NCBI RefSeq assembly: GCF_000377945.1
Contig: NZ_KB898933.1
Location: 7,482 to 71,481 of the forward strand
Length of the DNA: 64,000 nt
DNA from: Thioalkalivibrio sulfidiphilus
GTDB lineage: Bacteria; Pseudomonadota; Gammaproteobacteria; Ectothiorhodospirales; Ectothiorhodospiraceae
Direction: 5' to 3'
The translations under genes and the position numbers were made by a program. Every line of letters begins with the position of its first letter. Position 1 is the stretch's first letter. The notes under the pieces were generated by a model. The model made no database searches and was not told the DNA's origin. It was given only the letters and a program-made list of their open reading frames with translations. Positions 6,434-43,615 of the stretch are shown piece by piece.

Positions 6434-7101
6434 CCCTGCCGGAACCGATGCCGGTGGTGGTGCTCATCTCCGGCACCGGCACCAACCTGCAGGCATTGAT
6501 CGACGCCATCGCCGCCGGCGAGGTGCGGGCGCGCATCGCGGCGGTGATCAGCAACCGCCCCGGCGCCGGTGGCCTGGAACGGGCCCGGCGGGCGGGCATC
6601 CCCACCCACGTGCTGGACCACACCGGTTACCCGGACCGGGCCGCCTTCGACGCCGCCCTGGCAGCCGCCATCGACCGCTATCAACCCGGCCTGGTGGTAC
6701 TGGCCGGCTTCATGCGCATCCTCACCCCCGGCTTCGTGGAGCACTATGCCGGACGCATGATCAACATCCACCCTTCCCTGCTGCCGGACTTCCGCGGCCT
6801 CAACACCCATGAACGGGCCCTGCGCGCCGGGGTCAAAGAACATGGCGCCAGCGTCCACTTCGTCAACAACGAGCTGGACGGCGGCCCCGTGATCATGCAG
6901 GCCCGGGTTCCGGTCAGGTCCGACGACACCCCCCAGACCTTGGCCGCACGGGTCCAACAGCGGGAACACCGCCTCTATCCCCGGGTGGTGGGTCTACTGG
7001 CCGATGGCCTCCTGAAACTCCAGGGCGGTGAGGTATGGTTCGACGGTACGCCGCTGGACGCCCCCCTGGACCTGGACGCGCAGGCATCCGCAGAGGATTG
7101 A
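6430..7101 (+). CDS. purN: Phosphoribosylglycinamide formyltransferase
   Basis: GAR transformylase, third step of purine synthesis, using 10-formyltetrahydrofolate. Protein of 223 residues. It has [18 protein letters not shown] for the phosphate loop, [22 protein letters not shown] with the catalytic His, and [15 protein letters not shown] with the catalytic Asp. The ATG overlaps the purM stop. A DUF3108 gene follows after five bases, which is the usual gammaproteobacterial order. Confidence 0.97.
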
Positions 7102-7106
7102 TCAAC

Positions 7107-7823
7107 ATGGCATGGAACACCCTCAGCACCCGGCTCGCACTGCTCATCCTGCTGCTCGGCGCCGGCCCCCCGGCCCTGGCGATGCCCCCGGCCCATACCG
7201 CCTTCTACGAGGCCGTCGCCTACGGCAACACCCTCAAGACCCGCAGCACCGTGAACTACGAACCCGGGCTGGTGCGCATGAGCCTGGACGCCCGGATCGT
7301 GGGTTTCCTGCGCATCCTGGGGCGCTTCGAGATGTCCCGGGAAAGCATCCTCAGCAACAGCCCCGAAGGCCTGCGCCTGCTGGAAAGCCATCACAGCGAG
7401 ACCCAGCCCCGGCGCAGCCGCGAGGTGCACACCCGCTTTGACTGGGACGCGCACCTCGCGCGGGGCACCCAGGACGGCAAGCCCTTCGAGATCGAGGTGC
7501 AGGACGGTACCCTGGACTACCTCTCCGTGCTGATGATGCTCATGCAGGAACTGCGCACCGGCAATGTCGAGGCCCGTGAAACCGTGGAAGTGGTGGAGCG
7601 CCATCGCCTGCGCACCTACACCCTGATCCGGGAAGGCAACGAGCGGCTGCAGACAGACCTCGGCCGCCTGGACACGGTGAAGATCACCCGCCGGGACGAG
7701 GAGCGGGGTATCGCCCTCAGTGCCTGGTTTGCCCCTGAACTGCACTACATCCCGGTACGCTTCGACTACGAGGCCGACGGGCGCATCTACGCCCTGAGAA
7801 TCACCGGGGTGGAGTGGCATTGA
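7107..7823 (+). CDS. DUF3108 periplasmic protein
   Basis: Protein of 238 residues. The start at 7107 gives a signal peptide (MAWNTLSTRLALLILLLGAG, cut near ALAMP). The mature domain matches DUF3108 proteins found after purMN, with the blocks YEPGLVRMSLDARIVGF and VRFDYEADGRIYALRITGVEW. These are beta-rich periplasmic proteins of unknown function. It is spaced five bases from purN, so it is probably the last gene of the purMN operon. A repeat element follows directly. Confidence 0.82.
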   Translation: MAWNTLSTRLALLILLLGAGPPALAMPPAHTAFYEAVAYGNTLKTRSTVNYEPGLVRMSLDARIVGFLRILGRFEMSRESILSNSPEGLRLLESHHSETQPRRSREVHTRFDWDAHLARGTQDGKPFEIEVQDGTLDYLSVLMMLMQELRTGNVEARETVEVVERHRLRTYTLIREGNERLQTDLGRLDTVKITRRDEERGIALSAWFAPELHYIPVRFDYEADGRIYALRITGVEWH

Positions 7824-7830
7824 GCTTTGC

Positions 7831-7893
7831 GTGAGGGGTCAGGCGTCAGGCGTGGATGCTTGTACGCCTATCCCCTGCCCCTTCACGCCTCAC
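7831..7893. repeat. Inverted heptamer element, GTCAGGC family
   Basis: The left arm reads GTGAGGG, GTCAGGC, GTCAGGC, GTGGATG. The right arm, read on the minus strand, gives GTGAGGC, GTGAAGG, GGCAGGG. It lies in the 126-bp gap between two plus-strand genes and could form a hairpin that separates the purMN operon from the flavoprotein gene. Confidence 0.75.
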
Positions 7894-7949
7894 CTGGCGA
7901 AACACCTCTGATCAACCCGAATCACACACCCAAACACCGGTAACACACC

Positions 7950-9359
7950 ATGAGCGAACACTTCGACCTGGCCGTGATCGGCTCCGGACCGGGCGGCTAT
8001 CGCGCCGCGATCCTCGGCGCCCTGCGCGGGCTCAACGTGGCCATCATCGAGAAGGCCGACTGGGGCGGCTGCTGCCTCAACCGGGGCTGCGTGCCCAAGA
8101 AGGACTGGTACCACACCGCGAAACTCATCGCCGCCCAGCGCCACTTCGCCGGGCGCGGCATCGAGGGCACGCTCACTGCGTCCATGGACAGCGCCTGGGA
8201 ACACCAGGAGACCGTGGTGGCCAGCGTGCAGCAGAGCTACGTGGACTACATGAAGCACCTGAAGATCAGCGCGCTGCAGGGCGCAGCCCGCTTCAAGGAC
8301 ACCCATACGCTCGAGATCACCGCCAGCGACGGCAGCACGCAGCTCATCCAGGCGAAGCACAGCATCATCGCCACCGGCGCCACCGCCTTCGTGCCGGCCC
8401 CCTTCGAGGCCGTGGACGGCAAGGTGCTGACCAGTGACATGCTGTTCGACAGTCCGCCGCCGAAGGGCAAGCGCGTGGCGGTGATCGGCAACGGCGTGGT
8501 GGCCACGGAGTTCGCCTTCATCTTCGCCATGCTGGGCAAGGAGGTGGTGTGGCTGTCGCGCTCCGCCGCCCTGCGCAAGATCCCCTTCAGCCCCCAGGCC
8601 ATGGGCGCGTTGAAGACCGCCTTCAAGGAACACGGCATCGAGCACCGCCAGGACGTGGGCTTTGAGTCGGTGGACACCGCCGGTGACGGCGTGGTGATCA
8701 CCCTCAAGGACGGCGAAAAGATCCAGGTGGACTGGGTGTGTCTCGGCACCGGCCGCACGCCCCACACCGAGGACCTGGGCCTGGAGGCCGTAGGCGTGAA
8801 GCTGGACCGCGACGGCTTCGTCAAACGCAACGACTTCCTGCAGACCGATGCCGCGAACATCTACGCCATCGGCGACGTGGCCAGTCCCTGGATGACCGCC
8901 AACCACGCCCTGTCGGACGCCACCGTGGCCGTGGACAACCTCATCAACGGCAACACCCGCAAGCAGGACGGCCTGCAGGTGCCCATCGTCATCTACAGCG
9001 CCATCGAGATGGCGCGCCTGGGCATGGACGAGGACATGGCCGAGGACGAGGAGCTGGAACCGGCGGTGGGCTTCGCCGCCTTCGAGACCTCCCCCTGCGC
9101 CCTGGGCCAGGACGACACCGCCGGCTTCGTGCGCCTGATCGGCGACATGGATTCCGGCGCCCTGCTGGGCGGTGAGATCGTGGGTGGCGAGGCGGGCGAA
9201 CTGATCCACCTGCTGTCGCTCGCGCCTAACCGGGAGACGGCGCTCAGCTGGATCGCCAAAGGCGTGTTCAACCACCCGGCCCGGGCGGAAGAGGTCCTCA
9301 ATGCCACCGAGACCCTGGCGAGCAAGTGGGGGCTTGCGGATCAGGTGTTCGACGCCTGA
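7950..9359 (+). CDS. Dihydrolipoamide dehydrogenase-like flavoprotein disulfide reductase
   Basis: Protein of 469 residues of the class I pyridine nucleotide-disulfide oxidoreductase family. FAD is bound by VIGSGPGGYRAAI at the N-terminus. The redox pair is GGCCLNRGCVPKK (C-x4-C, near residues 44-49). VAVIGNGVVATEFAF binds NAD(P)H, and IYAIGDV closes the FAD site. The C-terminal NHPARAEE retains the catalytic His and Glu of the HAHPT-SE motif, although the surrounding sequence differs from true Lpd. No E2 or E3-complex gene is near, so the substrate may not be lipoamide; sulfur oxidisers carry several such paralogues. No gene symbol is given for that reason. Confidence 0.82.
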   Translation: MSEHFDLAVIGSGPGGYRAAILGALRGLNVAIIEKADWGGCCLNRGCVPKKDWYHTAKLIAAQRHFAGRGIEGTLTASMDSAWEHQETVVASVQQSYVDYMKHLKISALQGAARFKDTHTLEITASDGSTQLIQAKHSIIATGATAFVPAPFEAVDGKVLTSDMLFDSPPPKGKRVAVIGNGVVATEFAFIFAMLGKEVVWLSRSAALRKIPFSPQAMGALKTAFKEHGIEHRQDVGFESVDTAGDGVVITLKDGEKIQVDWVCLGTGRTPHTEDLGLEAVGVKLDRDGFVKRNDFLQTDAANIYAIGDVASPWMTANHALSDATVAVDNLINGNTRKQDGLQVPIVIYSAIEMARLGMDEDMAEDEELEPAVGFAAFETSPCALGQDDTAGFVRLIGDMDSGALLGGEIVGGEAGELIHLLSLAPNRETALSWIAKGVFNHPARAEEVLNATETLASKWGLADQVFDA

Positions 9360-9373
9360 TCGATGAGGCACAC

Positions 9374-9390
9374 GGGGCGCAACGCGCCCC
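9374..9390. terminator. Hairpin between convergent genes
   Basis: A 7-bp stem of only G and C (GGGGCGC pairing with GCGCCCC) with a 3-base loop lies in the 39-bp gap between the flavoprotein gene and the convergent phosphatase gene. There is no T-tract, so intrinsic termination is uncertain. Confidence 0.45.
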
Positions 9391-9398
9391 GGTGATGA

Positions 9399-10109
9399 TC
9401 ACTCCCGCCGGAGGATACGCTCCACCAGCAGATTGCCGAGTCGACCGGAACGGTACTCGCGGTTGATCTTGTCGGCGTCGTAGACCTGTTCCACCCAGGT
9501 GCTGAAGTCCATGGGCGTCTCTGCCGCATCGCGCCGGTACTGCCTGAAGATCTCGTCCAGCACGCCGGTGCGGCCGATGCGCAGATGCCCGTAACGCAGC
9601 CGCAACTGCGCCGCGGCCTCGTCCGCGTCGCGCCCCTCGTGCATGGCCAGATACACCGCCGACATGAGGCCCGCCCGGTCCGCCCCCGACTTGCAGTGCA
9701 TCAGCGCCGGGTAGTTGAGCACCTGAAACATGCGCGCCGCCGCGAGCAGGGTCTCCCTGGGCGGCGCCCGCTTGGAGCTCACGGAAAAATTCACCAGCTC
9801 GATGCCGAAGCGCCGGCAGGCCTCCGCCTCCAGGAGATAGGCACCGGTATCCCCCTCGCCCCGAAGATTGACGATGGTCTTCACGCCGAGATCGGCCATC
9901 TGTTTCACATGGGCCGGCGAAGGCTGCGCGGAACGGTACATGCCCGGCGCCACCTGGTGTCGGTTGCTGTACAGGGCGCGGATGAAGCCGTGATCCACCA
10001 GCAGCAGCTCAAAGCGCCCGAGAAAACGCTGCCAGGGCGTGCGCATGTCTCCCCGGGCCCGGGAGACGACCCGGGCAAGCTTTCTGCCCACGGAATTGAT
10101 GTAGCGCAT
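9399..10109 (-). CDS. Dual-specificity/tyrosine phosphatase-like protein
   Basis: Protein of 236 residues. The start is the ATG at 10109, overlapping the upstream gene's stop as ATGA. The active-site loop LMHCKSGADRAG (about residues 133-144) has the full HCx5R signature with the catalytic Cys and Arg. MYRSAQPSPAHVKQMADLGVKTIVNLRGE is the N-terminal block typical of these small cytoplasmic phosphatases, which in some bacteria act on phosphoinositide-like or phosphoprotein substrates. The substrate here is unknown. It is coupled to an unknown 231-residue protein, which is a candidate partner or target. Confidence 0.8.
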   Translation of the reverse strand: MRYINSVGRKLARVVSRARGDMRTPWQRFLGRFELLLVDHGFIRALYSNRHQVAPGMYRSAQPSPAHVKQMADLGVKTIVNLRGEGDTGAYLLEAEACRRFGIELVNFSVSSKRAPPRETLLAAARMFQVLNYPALMHCKSGADRAGLMSAVYLAMHEGRDADEAAAQLRLRYGHLRIGRTGVLDEIFRQYRRDAAETPMDFSTWVEQVYDADKINREYRSGRLGNLLVERILRRE

Positions 10110-10804
10110 CAGGGCAATCGGGCCCGCAGGGCATCCCGGTCGAACCACCATTTGCCGCCCACGATGGCGTCCACGATCATGCCGAGCCGCGGGAAGAGCT
10201 TGTCGATGTTGTTGAGCTCGTACATCTCGATCCAGGTCTCCAGGGTCTCCTGGTCCTCGATGCCCCGGTGACGCCGGGCCACCTTGGCGATGATCTGGTT
10301 GGTGAGGAAGGTGAGATTGTCCCGTTCCTTGCCCTCGGTGCGCAGGCCGGCGATGTAGTGGGCCGCCATGGCCGCCACCGCCGCGCCATCGGCATTCTCC
10401 GGGGTCTCCTCCACCACGTGTCCCAGCATGGTCACCGTGGTGTGGGCCTTCACCGGGTAGGTGACCGAGAGCCACACGCCGTGGCCCAGGGCCACGATGG
10501 ATTCCGCCTGCTCCGCCTGGTAGAGCAGCTCGCAGGCCTCCACCGCCTCCTGCCACGCCTCGGCCTCGATCAGCTCGTCCAGCAGCGGACGCACCGTCTC
10601 CCAGACCTCGCCATGGCGCTCCAGTCCCAGGCGCGCCTCCGCCATGTCCAGCAGCAGGTGCACCCGCTCCATGAAGGGGGTGTCCGCCGGCAGGGCGGCG
10701 AGCTTCACCTGCATCTCCGCCAGCTGCTGCTCCATCGCGGCCTGTTCCGCGGCCAGCATACCGGTGAAGGGATTGCCGGGTCGGGTCTCGGGGTTCTGAT
10801 CCAT
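10109..10804 (-). CDS. Conserved hypothetical protein coupled to phosphatase
   Basis: I do not recognise a family. The chosen start at 10804 gives a 231-residue soluble, acidic, largely helical protein (MDQNPETRPGNPFTGMLAAE...). The N-terminal region is heptad-like and Gln/Glu-rich, and a central part (PLLDELIEAEAWQEAVEACELLYQ) suggests helical repeats. There is no signal peptide or membrane segment. Its stop codon overlaps the start of the HCx5R phosphatase, so the two proteins are likely made in fixed ratio. Divergent from the rhodanese gene at 10929. Confidence 0.65.
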   Translation of the reverse strand: MDQNPETRPGNPFTGMLAAEQAAMEQQLAEMQVKLAALPADTPFMERVHLLLDMAEARLGLERHGEVWETVRPLLDELIEAEAWQEAVEACELLYQAEQAESIVALGHGVWLSVTYPVKAHTTVTMLGHVVEETPENADGAAVAAMAAHYIAGLRTEGKERDNLTFLTNQIIAKVARRHRGIEDQETLETWIEMYELNNIDKLFPRLGMIVDAIVGGKWWFDRDALRARLP

Positions 10805-10928
10805 CTTGTCTTGCTCCGGGTGCGCCCGTGGGTCGTAGGGCCAGTGCCCGTGTTGTACCGAAGCCCCGGGGTGATGGCAACCGCCCAATCGGTATACTCA
10901 AGGACCCGACACCGCCCCCGAGGATCCC

Positions 10929-11402
10929 ATGAAGACCTACGAAACTCTCGTCGCCGAGGCCCTGACGGTGGTCCCCGAGATCCTGCCCTGGGACCTGCAG
11001 AGCCGTCTCGAGCAGGCCCCGCCTCCCCTGCTGCTGGACGTGCGCGAGCCCGAGGAATACGCCGCCATGCACATCCCCGGCAGCCTGCACGCACCCCGGG
11101 GCATCCTGGAGGCCGCCGCCCAGTGGGGCTTCGAGGAGACCCTGCCCGAACTGGTCCGGGCGCGGGATTCGGAGGTGGTGGTGATCTGCCGCTCCGGCCG
11201 GCGCAGCGCCCTGGCCGGGCGCACCCTGGTGGAGATGGGCTTCACCCAGGTGCAATCGCTCAAGATGGGCGTGCGCGGCTGGAACGACGACGGCGGTGCG
11301 CTGGAAGATGCCGACGGCAACGAGGTGGACCCGGAACTGGCGGACGAGTACTTCCGGGCGCGGGTGCGGCCGGAGCAGATGGGGCCTGAAGGCAGTGGCT
11401 AG
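10929..11402 (+). CDS. Rhodanese-like sulfurtransferase
   Basis: Single-domain rhodanese of 157 residues. LLLDVREPEEYAAMHIPGSLHAPRG is the substrate-side motif, and VVVICRSGRRSALAG contains the active-site loop CRSGRRS with the persulfide-forming Cys. The domain lies at about 25-125, with a charged C-terminal tail. No signal peptide, so it is probably cytoplasmic sulfane-sulfur transfer. It is one of two short rhodaneses in the first 15 kb, which fits a sulfur-oxidising host. Its stop codon TAG falls inside a heptamer array. Confidence 0.85.
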   Translation: MKTYETLVAEALTVVPEILPWDLQSRLEQAPPPLLLDVREPEEYAAMHIPGSLHAPRGILEAAAQWGFEETLPELVRARDSEVVVICRSGRRSALAGRTLVEMGFTQVQSLKMGVRGWNDDGGALEDADGNEVDPELADEYFRARVRPEQMGPEGSG

Positions 11403-11510
11403 TGGCAAGTCTCAAGTGGCAAGGGAAACCACCCTCACCCCGACCCTCTCCCTGAGGGAGAGGGGGAACGCTTTTTTCCTTGCCACTAGCCACTTGCCAC
11501 TGGCCACTTA
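11395..11510. repeat. Inverted GTGGCAA heptamer arms around a 21-bp palindrome
   Basis: Four direct heptamers (GTGGCTA, GTGGCAA, GTCTCAA, GTGGCAA, then GG) form the left arm at 11395-11424. Their complements at 11478-11510 form the right arm. Between them sits a perfect 21-bp palindrome built on CCCTCTCCCTGAGGGAG at 11444-11464. The stop codons of both convergent genes (rhodanese TAG, MotB-like TAA) lie in the arms. The same compound structure recurs at 37454-37613. Confidence 0.93.
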
Positions 11511-12791
11511 ATTCGGCGCCGATGACAGACGCATCTCGATGCGCCTGTTACGCGAGAAAGCGGCCTCCGTGCTGCCCGCGTCCAGGGGGTGATACTCGCC
11601 GAAACCTGCCGCCGCCAGGCGGCGGGGTGCCACGCCTCGGCTGATCAGGTAATAGACGATGCTCTGGGCCCGGGCGCTGGACAGCTCCCAGTTGGACGGG
11701 AACTGCTCGGTGCGGATGGGACGCCGGTCGGTATGACCTTCCACCATGAGCACCCAGCCGATGTCCCCGGGGATGCGGGCATCGATCTCGCGGATGGTGC
11801 GCGCCACCCGGTCCAGGCGCTCGCGGCCCTCGGGGCCGATCTCCGCCGAGGCGGTCTCGAAGAACAGCTCCGACTGGAAACGGAACCGGTCGCCCACGAT
11901 CTGGATGTCCTCCACGTCCGAGAGTACCTCCCGCAGGCGGCCGAAGAACTCGGACCGGTAGCGGGAGAGTTCCCTCACCTCCTCGGCCAGGGCCAGGTTC
12001 AGGCGCTCGCCCAGATCGGCGATCTCCACCCGCTGGGCCTCGATGGTCTCCTCCCGGGCGCGCAGGGTCTCGTTGAGGCGCGCCAGCTGCTGCTCCAGGT
12101 CCTGCATCTGGCGCCGCAGGGCATCCACCCGGGCCTGGGCGTCGGCGGTGAGGCTGCGCTCCTCGGCCAGGGCGCGGTCCCGCTCCTCGATACCGGCCGC
12201 CAGGTCCTGGATGCGGATCTCCCGGGCCTCGATCTCCCGCTGGGCCAGCAGGGTGGTCTCCTGCGTCTCCGCCAGGCGTGCCTCGAGGGCGCGACTGCGG
12301 TCCCGCAACTGTCCGGCAGCGGCCTGGCTCTCCTCCAGTTCCGAGGCCAGCCGCCCCACCTGGGACTCCAGGTCCTCGCGCAGGCGGCGCAGGGCGTCGA
12401 TGTCCTCCTGCAGGGAGGCGATCTGAAGCAGGCGCGCCTCCAGGGTCTCGGCCTGCTGCCTCAGTTCCGCCTGGCTCTGGTCGACGCTCTGCTGCAGTTG
12501 CTCCCGTTCGGCCAGGGTCACCTGCAGGCGTCCGGTCAGGGCCTGGACACGCTCGCGCAGGTCCTCGGCCTCGGCCTCGCGCATGGACAGGGTCTCGGCC
12601 AGCTCCGTGACCCGGGTCTGCAGGGTCTCCAGGGCCCGGTGGCGCTCGAACAACACGTCGGAGAGGTAGAACTGGGAGACCACGAACAGCATCAGCAGGA
12701 ACACGAACACCAGGACCACCGTGGCGAGCACGTCCACGAAGCCCGGCCAGATGTCGGTGCTACGGCTGCGGCGTCGGCTGGTGCTGATCAT
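11508..12791 (-). CDS. MotB/OmpA-like stator protein with long coiled coil
   Basis: Protein of 427 residues with three parts. One N-terminal membrane helix (about 16-45) starts WPGFVDVLATVV, and Asp20 sits at the position of the proton-binding Asp of MotB. Residues about 50-280 are an almost continuous coiled coil rich in Glu, Arg, Gln and Leu. The C-terminal OmpA/MotB peptidoglycan-binding domain (about 300-420) has EGHTDRRPI and SNWELSSARA. It is predicted to anchor an ion-driven motor to the cell wall. It follows the MotA/TolQ-like gene by 7 bases. No flagellar, tol or tonB gene is nearby. The pair resembles Zorya ZorA/ZorB in layout, but no zorC, zorD or zorE gene is present. Confidence 0.82.
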   Translation of the reverse strand: MISTSRRRSRSTDIWPGFVDVLATVVLVFVFLLMLFVVSQFYLSDVLFERHRALETLQTRVTELAETLSMREAEAEDLRERVQALTGRLQVTLAEREQLQQSVDQSQAELRQQAETLEARLLQIASLQEDIDALRRLREDLESQVGRLASELEESQAAAGQLRDRSRALEARLAETQETTLLAQREIEAREIRIQDLAAGIEERDRALAEERSLTADAQARVDALRRQMQDLEQQLARLNETLRAREETIEAQRVEIADLGERLNLALAEEVRELSRYRSEFFGRLREVLSDVEDIQIVGDRFRFQSELFFETASAEIGPEGRERLDRVARTIREIDARIPGDIGWVLMVEGHTDRRPIRTEQFPSNWELSSARAQSIVYYLISRGVAPRRLAAAGFGEYHPLDAGSTEAAFSRNRRIEMRLSSAPN

Positions 12792-12798
12792 GTCCGGC

Positions 12799-13944
12799 TC
12801 AGTCCCGTCCGCCTTCGCTCACCCGGGCCACGGTGCGGGTGAGCAGCCGGATCTCCTCGCGCAGGGTGTCCACCAGTTCGGATCGCTCGGCCCCGAGGGT
12901 GTCGCGCACCCCGTCGAGACTCTGGGACAGGCGCTGCAGCTGCTCGCGCAGCTGCTGGTCGGTGTCGCTGCGCTCGGACGTGGATGTGGCCAGGGCCTGC
13001 AACACGCCCTGCAGTTCGCCCTGGGTGCGCACCACGCCCAGCAGGGCCTTGTGGTCGCTGCGGGCCTGCTCCGCCAGGGCACCCACTTCGCCGATCAGGG
13101 CCTCCAGGCGCTGATCCGCCGCACGGCGGGTCTCCTCGCCCTTGCTCATGATGCGCTGCAATTTATCCAGGCTGTCGGCGGTCTGCTCCAGCAGGGCCTG
13201 GATGTAGGCGGGCACGCTGCCCTCCCCCTCCGCGACCAGGGCGCCGCTGGACAGGCGCGTCTGGCCTGCCAGCCATTCCTCCAGCTCGTTGTAGAAGCGG
13301 TTCTGGGCATGCCCCGCCTGCAGGTCGATGAAGCCGAGCACCAGGGCGCCGGCCAGGCCGAACAGGGAGGAACTGAAGGCGGTGCCCAGACCCGAGAGCG
13401 GCGCCTCCAGGCCTGCCTGCAGGCCGCGAAAGGCGGTGCCCACGTCCTCGCCGCCCAGGTTCAGGCCGCTGATCACGGCGCTCACCCCGCCCAGGGTGTC
13501 CAGCAGACCCCAGAAGGTGCCCAGCAGGCCCAGGAACACCAGCAGTCCGATGATGTAGCGGGAGATGTCCCGGGATTCATCCAGGCGCGAGCGGATGCCG
13601 TCCAGCAGGGTACGCAGGGAGGTGGTGGAGAGGGTGAACTGCTCGCCATGACGGCCGGTGAGCAGGCGGGCCATGGCTCCCAGCAGGCGGGTGCGGGGCA
13701 GGATGGCGGCATCGGGGGCGTCGGCGCGACGGAACCGCTCGATCCACCGGGCCTCGGGGGCCAGGATCAGCACCTGGCGGTAATTGATCACCAGGCCGGC
13801 CAGGAGCACCAGCAGGATCAGTCCGTTGAACACCGGATTGGCCATGAAGGCCCGGGCCAGGGGCACCGAAAGCACCGCCACCACCAGCGCCACCGCCAGC
13901 AGGAACAGGCTCATCCAGATCAGGGCATTGCGGGTGTTGCGCAT
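12799..13944 (-). CDS. MotA/TolQ/ExbB-like proton channel protein with coiled-coil tail
   Basis: Protein of 381 residues. The ATG at 13944 was chosen over one five codons upstream because GGGAGG lies at ideal spacing. There are two N-terminal membrane helices (7-29, 37-54), a cytoplasmic section, and two channel helices: FLGLLGTFWGLLDTL at about 137-151, and GLGTAFSSSLFGLAG further on, the family signature. A cytoplasmic tail of about 150 residues is predicted as coiled coil. It should form a pentamer around a dimer of the MotB-like protein and couple ion flow to rotation. The long tail is unlike TolQ or ExbB. Co-transcribed with the MotB-like gene. Confidence 0.82.
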   Translation of the reverse strand: MRNTRNALIWMSLFLLAVALVVAVLSVPLARAFMANPVFNGLILLVLLAGLVINYRQVLILAPEARWIERFRRADAPDAAILPRTRLLGAMARLLTGRHGEQFTLSTTSLRTLLDGIRSRLDESRDISRYIIGLLVFLGLLGTFWGLLDTLGGVSAVISGLNLGGEDVGTAFRGLQAGLEAPLSGLGTAFSSSLFGLAGALVLGFIDLQAGHAQNRFYNELEEWLAGQTRLSSGALVAEGEGSVPAYIQALLEQTADSLDKLQRIMSKGEETRRAADQRLEALIGEVGALAEQARSDHKALLGVVRTQGELQGVLQALATSTSERSDTDQQLREQLQRLSQSLDGVRDTLGAERSELVDTLREEIRLLTRTVARVSEGGRD

Positions 13945-37618: not shown

Positions 37619-38884
37619 TCAGTTCAACTGAACGCGCTGCCCCCAGGGCACCGGCGTCTTGCCCTTCACCAGCCACACCACGGGATAGTGGGGCGGCAGC
37701 GGGGGGAAATCCCCCTGGGCGTCGGTGAAGTAGACCAGCAGGTCCGGCTGGCGGTCGAGGCTCGCGATCCAGTCGAATACGGGCCGGAAGTCGGTGCCGC
37801 CGCCGCCCTGGAAGGACTCGGGCAGGCGCAGGGCCTCCCAGGGCTCGAACACCCAGGGACCATCGGCATTCATCTGGTGGTCGCAGGCGTGCAGGGTGAC
37901 CCGGGCGCGGATCTGGCCCTTGATGGCGTCCACCTCGGTGATGAAGTCGGTCATCTCCTTCGCAGACACGGAACCGCTGGTGTCGAGCAGCACCACCACG
38001 TCCAGGTTGTGACTCCTGAGGTTCGGCAGGATGGCGGGCTCGCCGCGCCTGGACGAGGGGCGGCTGTAGCTGTAGTCGTCCCGGGCCTGGGCGCTCATGT
38101 AGCGGGCCAGCAGCATGCGCCAGGGCAGCTGGGGTTGCAGCAGGTGATCCACCAGTCGCGCCATGTCGCTGCTGAGCTTGCCCGCCTGCATGGCCTGCTG
38201 GGCGGCGCCGGCCAGACGCTGGCGCCACTGCACCGCCAGTTCCTCCCGCTCCTGGTGGCCGAGGGGCGGGGGCGGATGGTCACCGCCATGGTGCTCGTCG
38301 GTCTCCCGTTCGGGACGCTCGGCTTCGTTCTGCCCCTCGCCGGGATCCTGCTGCGGGTGCTCGTCGCGGCGCTTGCCCCTGCCCTCCCCGGACTCCGGCG
38401 GCGGCTGCTTGCCCTTGCCGCTGCGCTGCTCCTCGGGCCGATCGTAGACGTGCTGGTCCAGGGTCGAGTCGTTTTCGTTGTCCTGGATGAAGGGGTAGAT
38501 CTCCTCGGCGGACATGCCCTCGTAGCTGCGCTCATACAGCATGCCCGGCGGCGGCGTGAGGCCGTCGTTGATGAGGATGGGATTGATGGCGTAGTCGCAG
38601 GCGATGTCCCAGAGGTGCTTGACCCGGTGACCGCGACGGGCGAAGTGCCCCAGGGCGCAGTGCAGGGCCTCGTGGGCCAGCATGTACTGCACCTCGGCCA
38701 GGTTGAGCTTGTCGATGTACTCGGCGTTGTAATAGAGCTTGCGCGCGTCCGTGGCGGTGGTCCTGCACCAGTCGCCGGCGGGCTCAAGCGGCAGGCGCAG
38801 GACCAGGGCGCCGAGAAACGGCTTGTCCAGGATCAGGCGCGTGCGTGCCGCGCCCAGCTTCGTCACCACATCGGGTTTGCTCAC
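37619..38884 (-). CDS. DUF2201 metallopeptidase/VWA-like protein
   Basis: Protein of 421 residues from a GTG start at 38884. The N-terminal domain (about 1-130) has YMLAHEALHCALGHFARR, an HExxH zinc-peptidase motif, and the helix ACDYAINPILIND. A charged, low-complexity linker (about 150-210, many Glu, Arg, His, Pro) follows. The C-terminal VWA-like domain has VVVLLDTSGSVSAKEM, a MIDAS-like DxSxS, and GGGGTDFRPVFDWI. It lies directly after a MoxR ATPase gene, so the pair probably acts as a MoxR-VWA chaperone-like system on an unknown cofactor-bearing or secreted target. Confidence 0.87.
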   Translation of the reverse strand: MSKPDVVTKLGAARTRLILDKPFLGALVLRLPLEPAGDWCRTTATDARKLYYNAEYIDKLNLAEVQYMLAHEALHCALGHFARRGHRVKHLWDIACDYAINPILINDGLTPPPGMLYERSYEGMSAEEIYPFIQDNENDSTLDQHVYDRPEEQRSGKGKQPPPESGEGRGKRRDEHPQQDPGEGQNEAERPERETDEHHGGDHPPPPLGHQEREELAVQWRQRLAGAAQQAMQAGKLSSDMARLVDHLLQPQLPWRMLLARYMSAQARDDYSYSRPSSRRGEPAILPNLRSHNLDVVVLLDTSGSVSAKEMTDFITEVDAIKGQIRARVTLHACDHQMNADGPWVFEPWEALRLPESFQGGGGTDFRPVFDWIASLDRQPDLLVYFTDAQGDFPPLPPHYPVVWLVKGKTPVPWGQRVQLN

Positions 38885-38897
38885 GGAACCTGCCCGA

Positions 38898-39944
38898 TCA
38901 GTTCTCGTAAAGCATCAGGTCCGCCACCTCGGTGGCCCAGCGACCGAACTCCGGCACCGCGAACAGCGGCTCGCCCAGGGCCCGGTGCATGTCCATGATC
39001 ATCATTACGCCCATCTCCCGCTGCGGGAACACGCCGGCGTAGTTGAGGATGTTTCCCCAGACCACCGGCGCCTCCTGCGCCTCCCGGGCACGGATGGCGC
39101 GCCCCACCAGGGCGGCGGCCACGGCGTACTGCAGGTCGATCTCCCGGGGCGCCGGCAGGCGCTCGCCGCCGATGATGGCGTCCAGATCCGGCAGATCCTC
39201 CAGGTGGGCGAGGAAGGCGGCCAGTTCGATGCCGGCGGCCTGGCCGACACAGGCCTGCAGGGCGCCGGAGAGCAGCTCCGGCTGGCCCTCGAACTTCTGC
39301 AGGGCCCGGTGGGCGAACTCCCAGGAACGGGGCGAGGGGAAGGCCACGGGGTTATGGGCCGGGTCGAAATCGAACAGCAGGTCCGGGCGGAAACGGATGA
39401 AGGCGATGATGCGGTCGTCGATGCCGGCGCCGTAGGCCCAGGCGGCCCAGTCGTCCACGTTCAGGTCCACCTCGAAGTGGGAGAATCGGTTGGCGAGCGG
39501 CGCGGGCATGGTGTAGGTCACGCCCCGGTCGCCCTGGCGGTTGCCGGCGGCGAAGATGGCCCAGCCCTCGGGCACCTGGTAGTTGCCCAGGCGCCGGTCG
39601 AGGATCAGCTGGTAGGCGGCGGCCGAGACACTGGGAGGCGCCGAGGTGATCTCGTCCAGGAACAGGATGCCCTCGGGGCCGTGCCGCTCGGCATCGGGCA
39701 GCATGGAAGGGATGGCCCATTCCACCCGGTCGCCGTGCTTGAAGGGGATGCCGCGCAGGTCCGAAGGCTCCATCTGGGAGAGGCGGATGTCGATCAGCGG
39801 CACGCCGTGGCGGTTCGCCACCTGGGTGATCATCTGGGACTTGCCCACCCCCGGCGGGCCCCAGAGCATCACGGGGGTGTGATGCCCCGAACGGGTGCTC
39901 TGAAACTCCCGGTCCAGCACTTGCAGCAACAGCGCGGGTCGCAT
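38898..39944 (-). CDS. MoxR-family AAA+ ATPase
   Basis: Protein of 348 residues. Walker A is MLWGPPGVGKSQMI (about 26-39), Walker B is GILFLDEITSAP, and sensor-1 is IFAAGNRQGD, with an arginine-finger region near APLANRFSHFEVD. The ribosome site AGGAGC is close to the ATG. MoxR proteins work with VWA-domain partners to mature enzyme complexes; the partner is the next gene, 13 bases on. Closeness to dsrS suggests a possible role in sulfur metabolism, an inference only. Confidence 0.9.
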   Translation of the reverse strand: MRPALLLQVLDREFQSTRSGHHTPVMLWGPPGVGKSQMITQVANRHGVPLIDIRLSQMEPSDLRGIPFKHGDRVEWAIPSMLPDAERHGPEGILFLDEITSAPPSVSAAAYQLILDRRLGNYQVPEGWAIFAAGNRQGDRGVTYTMPAPLANRFSHFEVDLNVDDWAAWAYGAGIDDRIIAFIRFRPDLLFDFDPAHNPVAFPSPRSWEFAHRALQKFEGQPELLSGALQACVGQAAGIELAAFLAHLEDLPDLDAIIGGERLPAPREIDLQYAVAAALVGRAIRAREAQEAPVVWGNILNYAGVFPQREMGVMMIMDMHRALGEPLFAVPEFGRWATEVADLMLYEN

Positions 39945-40212: not shown

Positions 40213-42051
40213 ATGCTCCAACTCCTACGCCCATTGACCCTGCTTGGCGCCTTCAACCCCGACACCGTCAGCAACAAGGCACCGCCCGCCGACCCGGTCC
40301 CCGTCGACAGCGCTTCGGTCAGACCCGAACCCCTGCCCGTGCCATCCGCCGTGCAACTCATGGCCCTGGCCCGACGCCTGCTGGAACACGCGGAACAGGG
40401 CAGTGCCAGCCTGGCCCAGCGCATGGACGAGATGGACCAGCGCTCCAGCACGCTGAAGATCGCCCTGGATGCGGCGGAATCCCAGATGCAGCAAAGCCTG
40501 GGCTCGGCGGAGGCCCTGGAGGGCGAGATCGCCACCGGCGTGCAGGACACCCAGCGCCACATTGGTGAGGGACTCGCCCGCATCGACGGGGAACTCACCC
40601 GCCGGCTGGCCGAAACCACGCAGATCGTCTCCCTCATCGAGGGCATCGCCAACGAGCTCAACCTGCTGGCCATCAACGCGGCCATCGAGGCCGCCCACGC
40701 GGAGCGTTACGGGGCCACCTTCGGCGTGGTGGCGGAGCGCATCCGGGAGCTGGCGGGATCGACCCGCAGCCATGCCCAACGCATCAAGGAACAGCTGGAA
40801 TTCAGCGACCTGCACGAGGCCCTCGAACGCTTCCAGCAGGACACGGGAGACACCCTGGGCGCGCTGGCCGACAGCACCTCGGCATCTACCCGCCGGCAAC
40901 TGGGCAATTTCCAGCACATGCACGCGCACCTGCAATCGGTGCGGGACAACAACAAGGTGATCTTCGAGGTGCTGGGCCAGAGCCAGTCGGCGGTGGAGCG
41001 GGTCGCGGGCAAGACCCGCTGGAGCCGGTCGCTGCTCGCCGAGGGCACGACCGCGCTGGAACAGGGCGGCGAGCCGGCCCTCACCCGCCTGCTGCAGGAC
41101 CGGGATCTGCTGCGCGCACCGGACTTCGACCGCCTGGCCGAGATCCGCCGGCGCGGCGTGCTCCGGGTGGCCATCGAGCCAGACTTCAAGGGCCTGTCCT
41201 TCAGGCGCCGTCCCGGCGACCCCCTGCAGGGCCTGGATGCGGACTACGCCCGGGCCTTCGCCCGCTGGCTCGGCGTGGAGTGCCAGTTCCTGGAGTGCCC
41301 CTGGGACCAGTGCACCGAACTGCTGGCCGCTGGCCGTGCCCCGGGAGAACCGGAGGCGGATCTGGTGTGGAGCGCCCTGCCCCCCAATGCCAGCTACCGT
41401 GACGTGGCCTTCTCGGAATCCTATACCTACCTGCCCTATGCCCTGGCCCGGCGCAAGGGGGATACCCGCATCAGCGGCATCGCCGACCTGGAGGGACGGG
41501 TGCTGGGCTGCATCAACGACCCGGCCGCCTTCGACACCCTGGCCGGCGCGGGCCTGCGCTGGCCGGCCAACCAGGACCAGCCAGGAGGCCGGGTGCGGCT
41601 GGCCAACCTGGTGGCCTACTCCGACCAGGGGCGCATCCACGACTGCCTGGCGGATGGTCTGGTGGACGCCTTCGCGGTGGACCGGCCCATCTACTGGTGG
41701 GCCTGTTACGGTGAGGACAGCCCCTGGCGCGGACAGATCGAACTGCTGCCTGCCCCCATCAGCGCCACCCCCTGGTACTACGCCGCGGGGGTGTCGGCAG
41801 AGCCCTCCGGCTATCACCTGCTGGCGGCGCTGAACCGTTTCATTGGCGAGTTCCGGGGCAGCCCGGAACGCCGCGCCATCGAGCAGCGCTGGCAGGGCCA
41901 GGTGCTCGACGGCACCCAGAGTTACCGGCAGGAACCCGGCGACCTGCCGGGGGAAGCGGAGTTGCGAAAGCGCTACCTGGAGCATTGCCAGAGACTCGGC
42001 ATCGAGCCCAGGCCTGCGGAGGATGCCGATCCGCGGCGACTGTCCGCCTGA
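40213..42051 (+). CDS. Soluble chemoreceptor-type signalling domain fused to C-terminal substrate-binding domain
   Basis: Protein of 612 residues. Residues about 45-285 are a helical MCP signalling region whose hairpin tip (145-182) is well conserved: IANELNLLAINAAIEAA then YGATFGVVAERIRELAGST. Residues about 314-565 are a family-3 solute-binding domain (RGVLRVAIEPDFKGLSFRR, GLDADYARAFARWLGV, AFSESYTYLPYALARRKGD). No signal peptide or transmembrane helix is seen, although residues 1-14 are hydrophobic, so both parts appear cytoplasmic. The order is the reverse of common receptors, where the sensor is N-terminal and periplasmic. No che gene is nearby. Ligand unknown. Confidence 0.82.
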   Translation: MLQLLRPLTLLGAFNPDTVSNKAPPADPVPVDSASVRPEPLPVPSAVQLMALARRLLEHAEQGSASLAQRMDEMDQRSSTLKIALDAAESQMQQSLGSAEALEGEIATGVQDTQRHIGEGLARIDGELTRRLAETTQIVSLIEGIANELNLLAINAAIEAAHAERYGATFGVVAERIRELAGSTRSHAQRIKEQLEFSDLHEALERFQQDTGDTLGALADSTSASTRRQLGNFQHMHAHLQSVRDNNKVIFEVLGQSQSAVERVAGKTRWSRSLLAEGTTALEQGGEPALTRLLQDRDLLRAPDFDRLAEIRRRGVLRVAIEPDFKGLSFRRRPGDPLQGLDADYARAFARWLGVECQFLECPWDQCTELLAAGRAPGEPEADLVWSALPPNASYRDVAFSESYTYLPYALARRKGDTRISGIADLEGRVLGCINDPAAFDTLAGAGLRWPANQDQPGGRVRLANLVAYSDQGRIHDCLADGLVDAFAVDRPIYWWACYGEDSPWRGQIELLPAPISATPWYYAAGVSAEPSGYHLLAALNRFIGEFRGSPERRAIEQRWQGQVLDGTQSYRQEPGDLPGEAELRKRYLEHCQRLGIEPRPAEDADPRRLSA

Positions 42052-42075
42052 GCTGCCGGCGCGCCCTGACAACCC

Positions 42076-42091
42076 CCGGCCACAAGGCCGG
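42076..42091. terminator. Hairpin between convergent MCP-like gene and lnt
   Basis: CCGGCC, a 4-base loop ACAA and GGCCGG form a compact hairpin in the 40-bp gap. It ends exactly at the lnt stop codon. There is no T-tract on either side, so termination strength is uncertain. Confidence 0.5.
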
Positions 42092-43615
42092 TCAGGCCCG
42101 CAGCCAGCGGCGTCCCAGCAAGCCCACGGCCAGCAGGACCAGGCTGAGCCACACCGCCACGCTGTTGCCCCACAGGGCAAAGGGCGTGCGCCCGGTGCGC
42201 GGCTGGGCGTGGGCCGTGAGCACGTCCACCTCGAACTGGGGCGAGGTGGCGATCAGCTCGCCGCGGTGACCGATCACGGCGGACACGCCGGTGTTGGTGG
42301 CGCGCAGCATGTCGCGCCCGGTCTCGAGCGAACGCATGCGCGCGATCTCCAGGTGCTGGTGGGGGGCGATGGAATCGCCGAACCAGGCATCGTTGCTCAC
42401 GTTGATCAGCAACTTCGCCTCGGGCAGGGCATCGATCACCTGCCCGCCGAAGGCATCCTCGTAGCACACGGACATGCCCACGGGCAGATCGCCCACGTAC
42501 ATGAGCGGACGCCAGCTGCCCTTGGAGAGATCCGACATGGGGATCTCCAGCCAGTCATTCAGCCACATGAGCAGGCCCCTCAGGGGCAGGTACTCGCCGA
42601 ACGGCACCAGGTGGCGCTTGTGGTAGGCGGCGGGTTCCGCGGTGGCATGCACGATGCTGTTGTACATGGCGCCGGTCTCGAAGTCGTAGACGAAGATGCC
42701 GGTGATCAGCGCCCCGCCCCGGGCCTCCACCGCATCGGCCAGTTCCATCATCGGCTCGTGGACCTCGTGATAGAAGGCGGGGATGGCCGTCTCGGGCCAC
42801 AGCACGATGTCCACGGCTTCGGCCTCGTCCAGGACCTTTCGAGTGAGCCCGCCGTAGAGCGCCAGGGCCTCATCGATGCTATCCGGACCCCACTTCTCCT
42901 CCTGGGCCACGTTGCCCTGGATGAGATGCACGGCTAGCAGCCCCCCCTCGGGCCGGGTCCAGTCCACCCGGGCAAGCCCCAGGCCCGCGAGCCACAGGCA
43001 CAGCACGGCGGCTGCGCCCACGCCCAGGACCCGGGGTGTCCAGCGCACCAGGGCCCAGGCCAGCAGCCCGGCCATGAGTGCGGCCACCAAGCTCGCGCCG
43101 TAGGCACCCACCACCGGCACGTAGCCGGCCAGGGCCGTATCCACCTGGGCGGTGCCCAGCAGCAGCCAGGGGAAGCCGGTGAGGAACCAGCCCCGCCACC
43201 ATTCCCACAGCACCCAGGCGGCCGGGAAACACAGCACCAGGGCCGCAACCGGCAGGCGCGGGGCGAAGCGGGCCAGCAGGTAGCCGAGCAGCGCCGGATA
43301 CAGGGCCAGCACCGCCACGAACAGGGCGGTGATCAGGGCCGCCAGGGGCGCGATGGCGGAACCGAACAGGTGCAGGCTGTAATAGATCCAGGACACCCCC
43401 GCGCCGAACATCCCCAGACCGAACAGGTAGCCCCGCCACGCGGCCCGGCCCGGCGCCTGGTCCCACCACAGCAGGAACAGCGCCGCCGGCGCCAGCACGG
43501 CGAACACGCGCAGTTCATAGGGGGCGAAGGCCAGGCTCAGCGACACGCCCGCGACGAGGGCCAGGAGGTGGCCGAGACGGGGATGGGTCTCGAGGAAGGA
43601 GATGACCGGGTTCAT
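42092..43615 (-). CDS. lnt: Apolipoprotein N-acyltransferase
   Basis: Inner-membrane enzyme that adds the third acyl chain to lipoproteins. Protein of 507 residues from the ATG at 43615; 34 further in-frame residues upstream are not conserved. About six to eight N-terminal membrane segments are followed by a periplasmic nitrilase-like domain. The triad is visible: Glu in VLWPETAIPAF, Lys in YHKRHLVPFGEYLP and Cys in GMSVCYEDAFGG. It lies downstream of corC as in many gammaproteobacteria, but with a 395-bp repeat-filled gap. Confidence 0.96.
   Translation of the reverse strand: MNPVISFLETHPRLGHLLALVAGVSLSLAFAPYELRVFAVLAPAALFLLWWDQAPGRAAWRGYLFGLGMFGAGVSWIYYSLHLFGSAIAPLAALITALFVAVLALYPALLGYLLARFAPRLPVAALVLCFPAAWVLWEWWRGWFLTGFPWLLLGTAQVDTALAGYVPVVGAYGASLVAALMAGLLAWALVRWTPRVLGVGAAAVLCLWLAGLGLARVDWTRPEGGLLAVHLIQGNVAQEEKWGPDSIDEALALYGGLTRKVLDEAEAVDIVLWPETAIPAFYHEVHEPMMELADAVEARGGALITGIFVYDFETGAMYNSIVHATAEPAAYHKRHLVPFGEYLPLRGLLMWLNDWLEIPMSDLSKGSWRPLMYVGDLPVGMSVCYEDAFGGQVIDALPEAKLLINVSNDAWFGDSIAPHQHLEIARMRSLETGRDMLRATNTGVSAVIGHRGELIATSPQFEVDVLTAHAQPRTGRTPFALWGNSVAVWLSLVLLAVGLLGRRWLRA

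Follow-up and report, generated by a model that had tools for sequence, protein, structure and literature searches.

Solute-binding domains are usually treated as extracytoplasmic parts. Soluble MCPs with C-terminal sensors are already known: TlpD is a soluble chemoreceptor with a C-terminal CZB sensor (PMC13001251), and CZB is described as the regulatory domain that cytoplasmic chemoreceptors most often carry at the C-terminus (PMC8262984). In some bacteria, soluble receptors form double-layer arrays of their own (PMC3964821). That domains of the SBP family can serve as sensors in cytosolic signalling proteins is known in general terms (PMC9602780). Methylobacterium aquaticum 22A possesses MtpA, a cytosolic MCP for formaldehyde and methanol taxis in which only the MCPsignal domain was found (PMC10613068).

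The receptor described here is encoded in a stretch of 64,000 nucleotides from Thioalkalivibrio sulfidiphilus (the window). Like the CZB receptors of TlpD/McpA type, it has no membrane helix and places an MCP hairpin in front of a C-terminal sensor; its sensor, however, is a 260-residue Venus flytrap of SBP_bac_3 type, whereas theirs is a small zinc-binding CZB domain. With transmembrane MCPs, including those stimulated by free solute-binding proteins, it shares the MCPsignal output and sensing by a binding protein, but the order is reversed, the SBP is covalently attached at the C-terminus and there are no membrane segments. BvgS-type sensor kinases also use a flytrap of SBP_bac_3 type as fixed sensor of a signalling protein, and BvgS VFT2 (3mpk) is among our structural matches (VIA, Z 21.5); the BvgS flytraps are, in contrast, periplasmic and N-terminal, and they drive a histidine kinase. 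MtpA is likewise a soluble MCP and its genus also carries the present family, yet it is not a receptor of this type, since it shows only the MCPsignal domain. What sets it apart is the SBP_bac_3 domain as C-terminal sensor. Our search of the literature for MCPsignal combined with a C-terminal SBP_bac_3 domain found no paper describing the architecture, many subscription papers lying outside its coverage. The features assigned to the gene and its product are as follows (window coordinates):

40213-42051, + strand: complete coding sequence of a cytoplasmic MCP with C-terminal SBP_bac_3 domain, 612 aa, a single uninterrupted 612-codon frame
40213-40347, + strand: N-terminal 45 residues including 14 hydrophobic ones, not conserved (pLDDT under 50 for residues 1-41; dN/dS 1.15 against the ortholog in genome G004)
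40348-40698, + strand: N-terminal arm of the MCP coiled-coil hairpin, residues 46-162 (one predicted helix; Pfam MCPsignal)
40636-40746, + strand: hairpin tip, residues 142-178, diverged at E164, A168, T169, G171 and R176 (family alignment; other MCP tips of the genome)
40711-41100, + strand: C-terminal hairpin arm, residues 167-296, interrupted at 195-197, where the family motif D/E-F/L-S-D lies (alignment; helices predicted at 167-194 and 198-296)
41122-41910, + strand: SBP_bac_3 domain of periplasmic-binding-protein type, presumed sensor, residues 304-566 (Pfam; identity within the family; fold matches)
41176-41178, + strand: E322, acidic position of the putative pocket, equivalent to Asp11 of LAO type (profile alignment to AncQR, 4zv1; family alignment)
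41302-41304, + strand: W364, invariant aromatic residue of the pocket region, Phe in AncQR (family and profile alignment)
41680-41682, + strand: D490, acidic position of the putative pocket, equivalent to Asp161 of LAO type (family and profile alignment)
41911-42048, + strand: C-terminal tail, residues 567-612, weakly conserved (alignment; pLDDT under 50 at 564-585 and 601-612)

Both domains are recognized by Pfam above the curated cut-offs, namely MCPsignal (PF00015) at residues 127-215 (E 1.7e-15, 57.8 bits, cut-off 34.6) and SBP_bac_3 (PF00497) at residues 317-562 (E 6.4e-14, 52.3 bits, cut-off 26.4). The sequence-only reading had described this order, an MCP hairpin followed by a family-3 solute-binding domain, and had proposed the same domain search, which bears it out. 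Residues 60-265 align with Tsr (1qu7) in a sequence search (E 5.6e-8). Pfam matches no CZB domain in the window protein or in 17 non-redundant members of the family, and in a search of the 612-aa protein against NCBIfam all matches fell far under the cut-offs, the whole protein being named by no curated family. Along the receptor no stretch reaches transmembrane-like hydropathy (maximal KD19 is 1.27, inside the coiled coil, and 0.71 in the first 60 residues), and neither the receptor nor its homologs have a conserved N-terminal signal peptide, which agrees with the earlier remark that neither a membrane helix nor a signal peptide is visible.

The full-length AlphaFold2 model is of moderate confidence (eight sequences, mean pLDDT 64, pTM 0.46). 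It comprises a helix at 46-162, a turn, helices at 167-194 and 198-296, and an alpha/beta domain from residue 307; the helical part forms, at the same moderate confidence, an antiparallel hairpin with its tip turn at 163-166. Foldseek matched the model with solute-binding folds (E about 1e-12; TM-score on the target mostly 0.75-0.80 among the best). When the binding domain was modelled alone, pLDDT rose to 79.5 and pTM to 0.82, with Foldseek E-values of 1e-16 to 1e-13. VIA placed the domain among binding proteins of amino-acid type (Z 21-23, top 23.3; rmsd about 3 A over 211-243 residues). A different fold of the C-terminal part was named beforehand as fatal to the proposed architecture; the predicted structure is that of a solute-binding protein. 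Since the domain is C-terminal in a soluble protein without a conserved N-terminal signal, it is a sensor domain of the SBP fold and not a transport SBP.

Full-length homologs, 38-48% identical, soluble and with the same domain order, are present in Gammaproteobacteria, in Methylobacterium and Methylorubrum and in other non-gamma families. Each of the 17 non-redundant members carries both Pfam domains, and a scan of 18 members revealed no obvious membrane helix. The distribution of the family is patchy and clustered. It was found in 7 of 398 evenly drawn Pseudomonadota genomes, the window's own included; of 369 genomes sampled from the window's class only the window's own carries it, and among 58 relatives in its taxonomic family a full-length copy is present in one other genome (G004; 97% identical, same place). 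Two non-gamma families also have members, one in 13 of 29 genomes, where most stand in tandem pairs, and the other in 10 of 17 genomes; in two gamma families members were found in 7 of 49 and 12 of 198 genomes. No full-length relative was found in the plasmid and viral sequences searched. In a maximum-likelihood tree gamma and non-gamma sequences are intermixed, which suggests that the family was transferred between classes. Five copies from the gamma family f36 fall, well supported, within the group of the non-gamma family f92; the deep branches of the tree, the window's included, are long and their joins are insecure.

Several observations concern individual members. In one non-gamma genus of f92 the gene usually stands in a tandem pair (L082:7762-11559; L061/L067, L058/L065, L053/L063). 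The second tandem copies form a clade of their own with altered residues in the pocket region (for example E to D at the 322 position, and "GASFR"), and the five f36 copies group beside them in the tree. The f92 tandem copies suggest specialisation of paralogs. One member (L104 of G615) is broken by a change of frame at the hairpin tip, leaving a 496-aa frame, due to either a sequencing error or decay of the gene. In another tandem pair (L088 of G453) the frame of the second copy leaves the family after about residue 502 in window numbering, in a frameshift-like manner.

Conservation is highest in the binding domain, where family members share 52-66% identity with the window, compared with 25-30% for the hairpin. 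Between the window and G004 the gene is under purifying selection, with dN/dS of 0.18 for the whole gene, 0.16 for its MCP half and 0.04 for the SBP domain. The ratio of 1.15 in the N-terminal 45 residues, obtained on few sites, argues against an important function for most of them. Cytoplasmic chemoreceptors that carry a solute-binding sensor at the C-terminus are thus a real and conserved family, and the sequence-only reading had interpreted the protein correctly in its main points. No close stand-alone relative of the SBP domain was found in the 398 Pseudomonadota genomes; the next matches are mostly frames of 260-345 aa (E 1e-18 to 1e-15), nearly all covering the first lobe only.

High conservation of the binding domain across the family, together with its dN/dS of 0.04, argues that all members would share one ligand. 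We mapped the pocket by sequence, through profile alignment to AncQR (4zv1), an arginine/glutamine binder. In LAO, whose known structures we take as a guide, Asp11 and Asp161 are the pocket acids and an Arg clamps the carboxylate of the amino acid. The window domain has the fold and the two acidic pocket positions of the LAO/HisJ/ArgBP/GlnH binders, but it is cytoplasmic, does not belong to an ABC transporter, lacks the carboxylate-binding Arg and stays far under every NCBIfam cut-off. An acid is found at the 322 and 490 positions in all non-redundant members, while the AncQR Arg lies in a segment that is inserted with respect to the family profile, with no conserved basic residue there. Because the two acidic positions are kept and the carboxylate-binding Arg is lost, the ligand might, as a cautious guess, be cationic and amine-like, without an alpha-carboxylate. 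It is probably not a standard alpha-amino acid. SBP_bac_3 proteins are generally predicted to bind amino acids (PMC9602780), and an amino-acid ligand is for this reason possible for the receptor too. A link to the SBPs of methanol dehydrogenase (MxaJ/XoxJ) was considered and dropped, since only one of 17 members matches the corresponding model (TIGR03871), and weakly.

In the window and in G004 the receptor gene lies between lnt and an AAA ATPase gene, on the opposite strand. In two congeners (G002 and G003) these neighbours directly adjoin, 208 and 91 bp apart, with no detectable receptor remnant between them; the gene was therefore either inserted at this place or cleanly lost in the other congeners. 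Its composition (G+C 69.7%, GC3 87%) is close to that of its neighbours (69-70% and 89-93%), so a judgement of recent transfer on this basis was abandoned: any gain left no G+C mark. The AAA ATPase is MoxR-like and adjoins a DUF2201 VWA/metallopeptidase-like protein (37619-39944, - strand), a pair kept in congeners with and without the receptor gene. An antisense ORF of 651 aa (40225-42180, - strand) covers the receptor gene; it is most likely a product of G+C-rich codon bias, because the + frame is the conserved one.

No che gene adjoins the receptor, and no other gene with an MCPsignal or CheW domain is present on the window's contig, as the sequence-only reading had said of chemotaxis genes nearby. 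The genome as a whole harbors 14 MCPsignal loci over the cut-off and ten CheW-domain loci. Given these CheW-domain loci and the 13 other MCPsignal genes, the host has a chemosensory apparatus, and strain HL-EbGr7 of this species is motile by a polar flagellum (PMC3072093). Across the genera no common gene neighbour was found that could serve as a clue to the ligand; contexts with adjoining chemoreceptor-like genes are few (L015, and L085 of G244, where at 6887-13884 the family gene is flanked by two other MCP-like frames). Upstream of the window gene no sigma-28-like (FliA) promoter stands above background. A sigma-28 promoter common to the family was rejected as well: the best scores upstream of its genes are mostly within the range of shuffled sequences, with a nominal p of 0.08 or less for 4 of 54 upstream regions, at differing positions.

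The hairpin tip had been described as well conserved. It is recognizable, but the claim has to be narrowed. In most of the family the tip is near-canonical and contains GRGFAVVA; the window's lineage has E164, A168, T169, G171 and R176 at positions where 89-94% of the family agree on another residue. The tips of seven other MCPs inspected in the same genome are canonical. The window tip retains E159, equivalent to Tsr E385, and N155, and, like the tips of many gamma members, carries His where Tsr has Arg388. Because of the five changes at near-invariant positions, coupling to CheA/CheW in this lineage is plausible but insecure, and it may have been altered. The strict methylation motif [ASTG][ASTG]xx[EQ][EQ]xx[ASTG][ASTG] is absent from the window protein, and few such motifs occur across the family. 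Methylation sites are not found in all MCP-domain proteins; their absence weakens the attribute "methyl-accepting", not membership in the MCP domain family.

We suggest that this protein probably works as a soluble chemoreceptor of the cytoplasm and that it senses a small molecule of the cytosol with its C-terminal Venus flytrap. The MCP-type coiled-coil hairpin, presumably dimeric, would be the signalling part. Both termini of an MCP hairpin lie at its open base, and a flytrap attached there may act at the place where HAMP acts in membrane receptors. Binding of the cytosolic molecule would then close the flytrap, closure would shift the packing of helices at the hairpin base, and the shifted packing would change the activity of CheA at the tip. 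In this way swimming might be adjusted to the level of an internal metabolite.

Export or anchoring through the hydrophobic N-terminus, with the SBP sensing a periplasmic ligand, would leave the binding domain in its customary compartment. Residues 1-14 (MLQLLRPLTLLGAF) are indeed hydrophobic and nearly identical in the G004 ortholog, and the sequence-only reading saw in them a possible anchor, with export by an unseen route as alternative. Its hydropathy, 0.71 over 19 residues, nevertheless stays short of what a membrane segment shows; the Methylobacterium homologs do not have these residues, which are thus no family feature, and an exported MCP tip could not reach CheA. The sequence gives no support to a hidden export route, and the whole family lacks membrane helices and a conserved N-terminus, which favours the cytoplasmic placement that the same reading put first; we regard export as very unlikely. 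No more credit can be given to the C-terminal domain being a relative of enzymes such as cyclohexadienyl dehydratase instead of a sensor: ancestral proteins of that lineage are its best PDB sequence matches, yet identities are about 20%, one of them (AncCDT-1) is described as an amino-acid-binding precursor, and the structural matches are spread across amino-acid binders. The chance of an accidental fusion, frameshift or annotation artefact is negligible, even though the gene sits in G+C-rich DNA with long overlapping antisense ORFs. A frameshift joining two genes had been named as a danger to the original claim; in dozens of other genomes the two domains are likewise encoded by one frame, which excludes a joining frameshift or assembly error, and conservation of this frame across many genera and strong purifying selection, together with two congeners that keep the neighbours but cleanly lack the gene, mean that the artefact is already refuted by the family evidence.

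A more serious rival, though in our opinion still an unlikely one, accepts the location and the fold and concerns the output. The MCP-like coiled coil would be kept but no longer feed CheA in the usual way, the protein acting, in the window's lineage, as a metabolite-responsive scaffold or as a modulator of other receptors, for example an array-disturbing partner. The five departures at the tip speak for it, as do the canonical tips inspected elsewhere in the genome and the orphan position of a gene without a methylation motif. They have to be balanced against the near-canonical tip of most family members, the retained E385-equivalent glutamate and N155, and purifying selection on the MCP half. 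Returning to the cytoplasmic chemoreceptor, we give about even chances to a fuller history in which a flytrap of periplasmic type was brought into the cytoplasm and placed at the C-terminus, was re-specialised for a single, probably cationic cytosolic metabolite and spread between classes of Proteobacteria, while a non-standard tip is evolving in the T. sulfidiphilus lineage.

If our assumptions about the conserved internal SBP sensor hold, it would add a sensor class for metabolism-linked taxis. A soluble receptor made of one polypeptide would also be a tractable object for the question of how flytrap closure passes into the MCP hairpin. The high conservation of the binding domain between classes implies that the members have a cytosolic ligand in common, and screening metabolites could reveal it directly.
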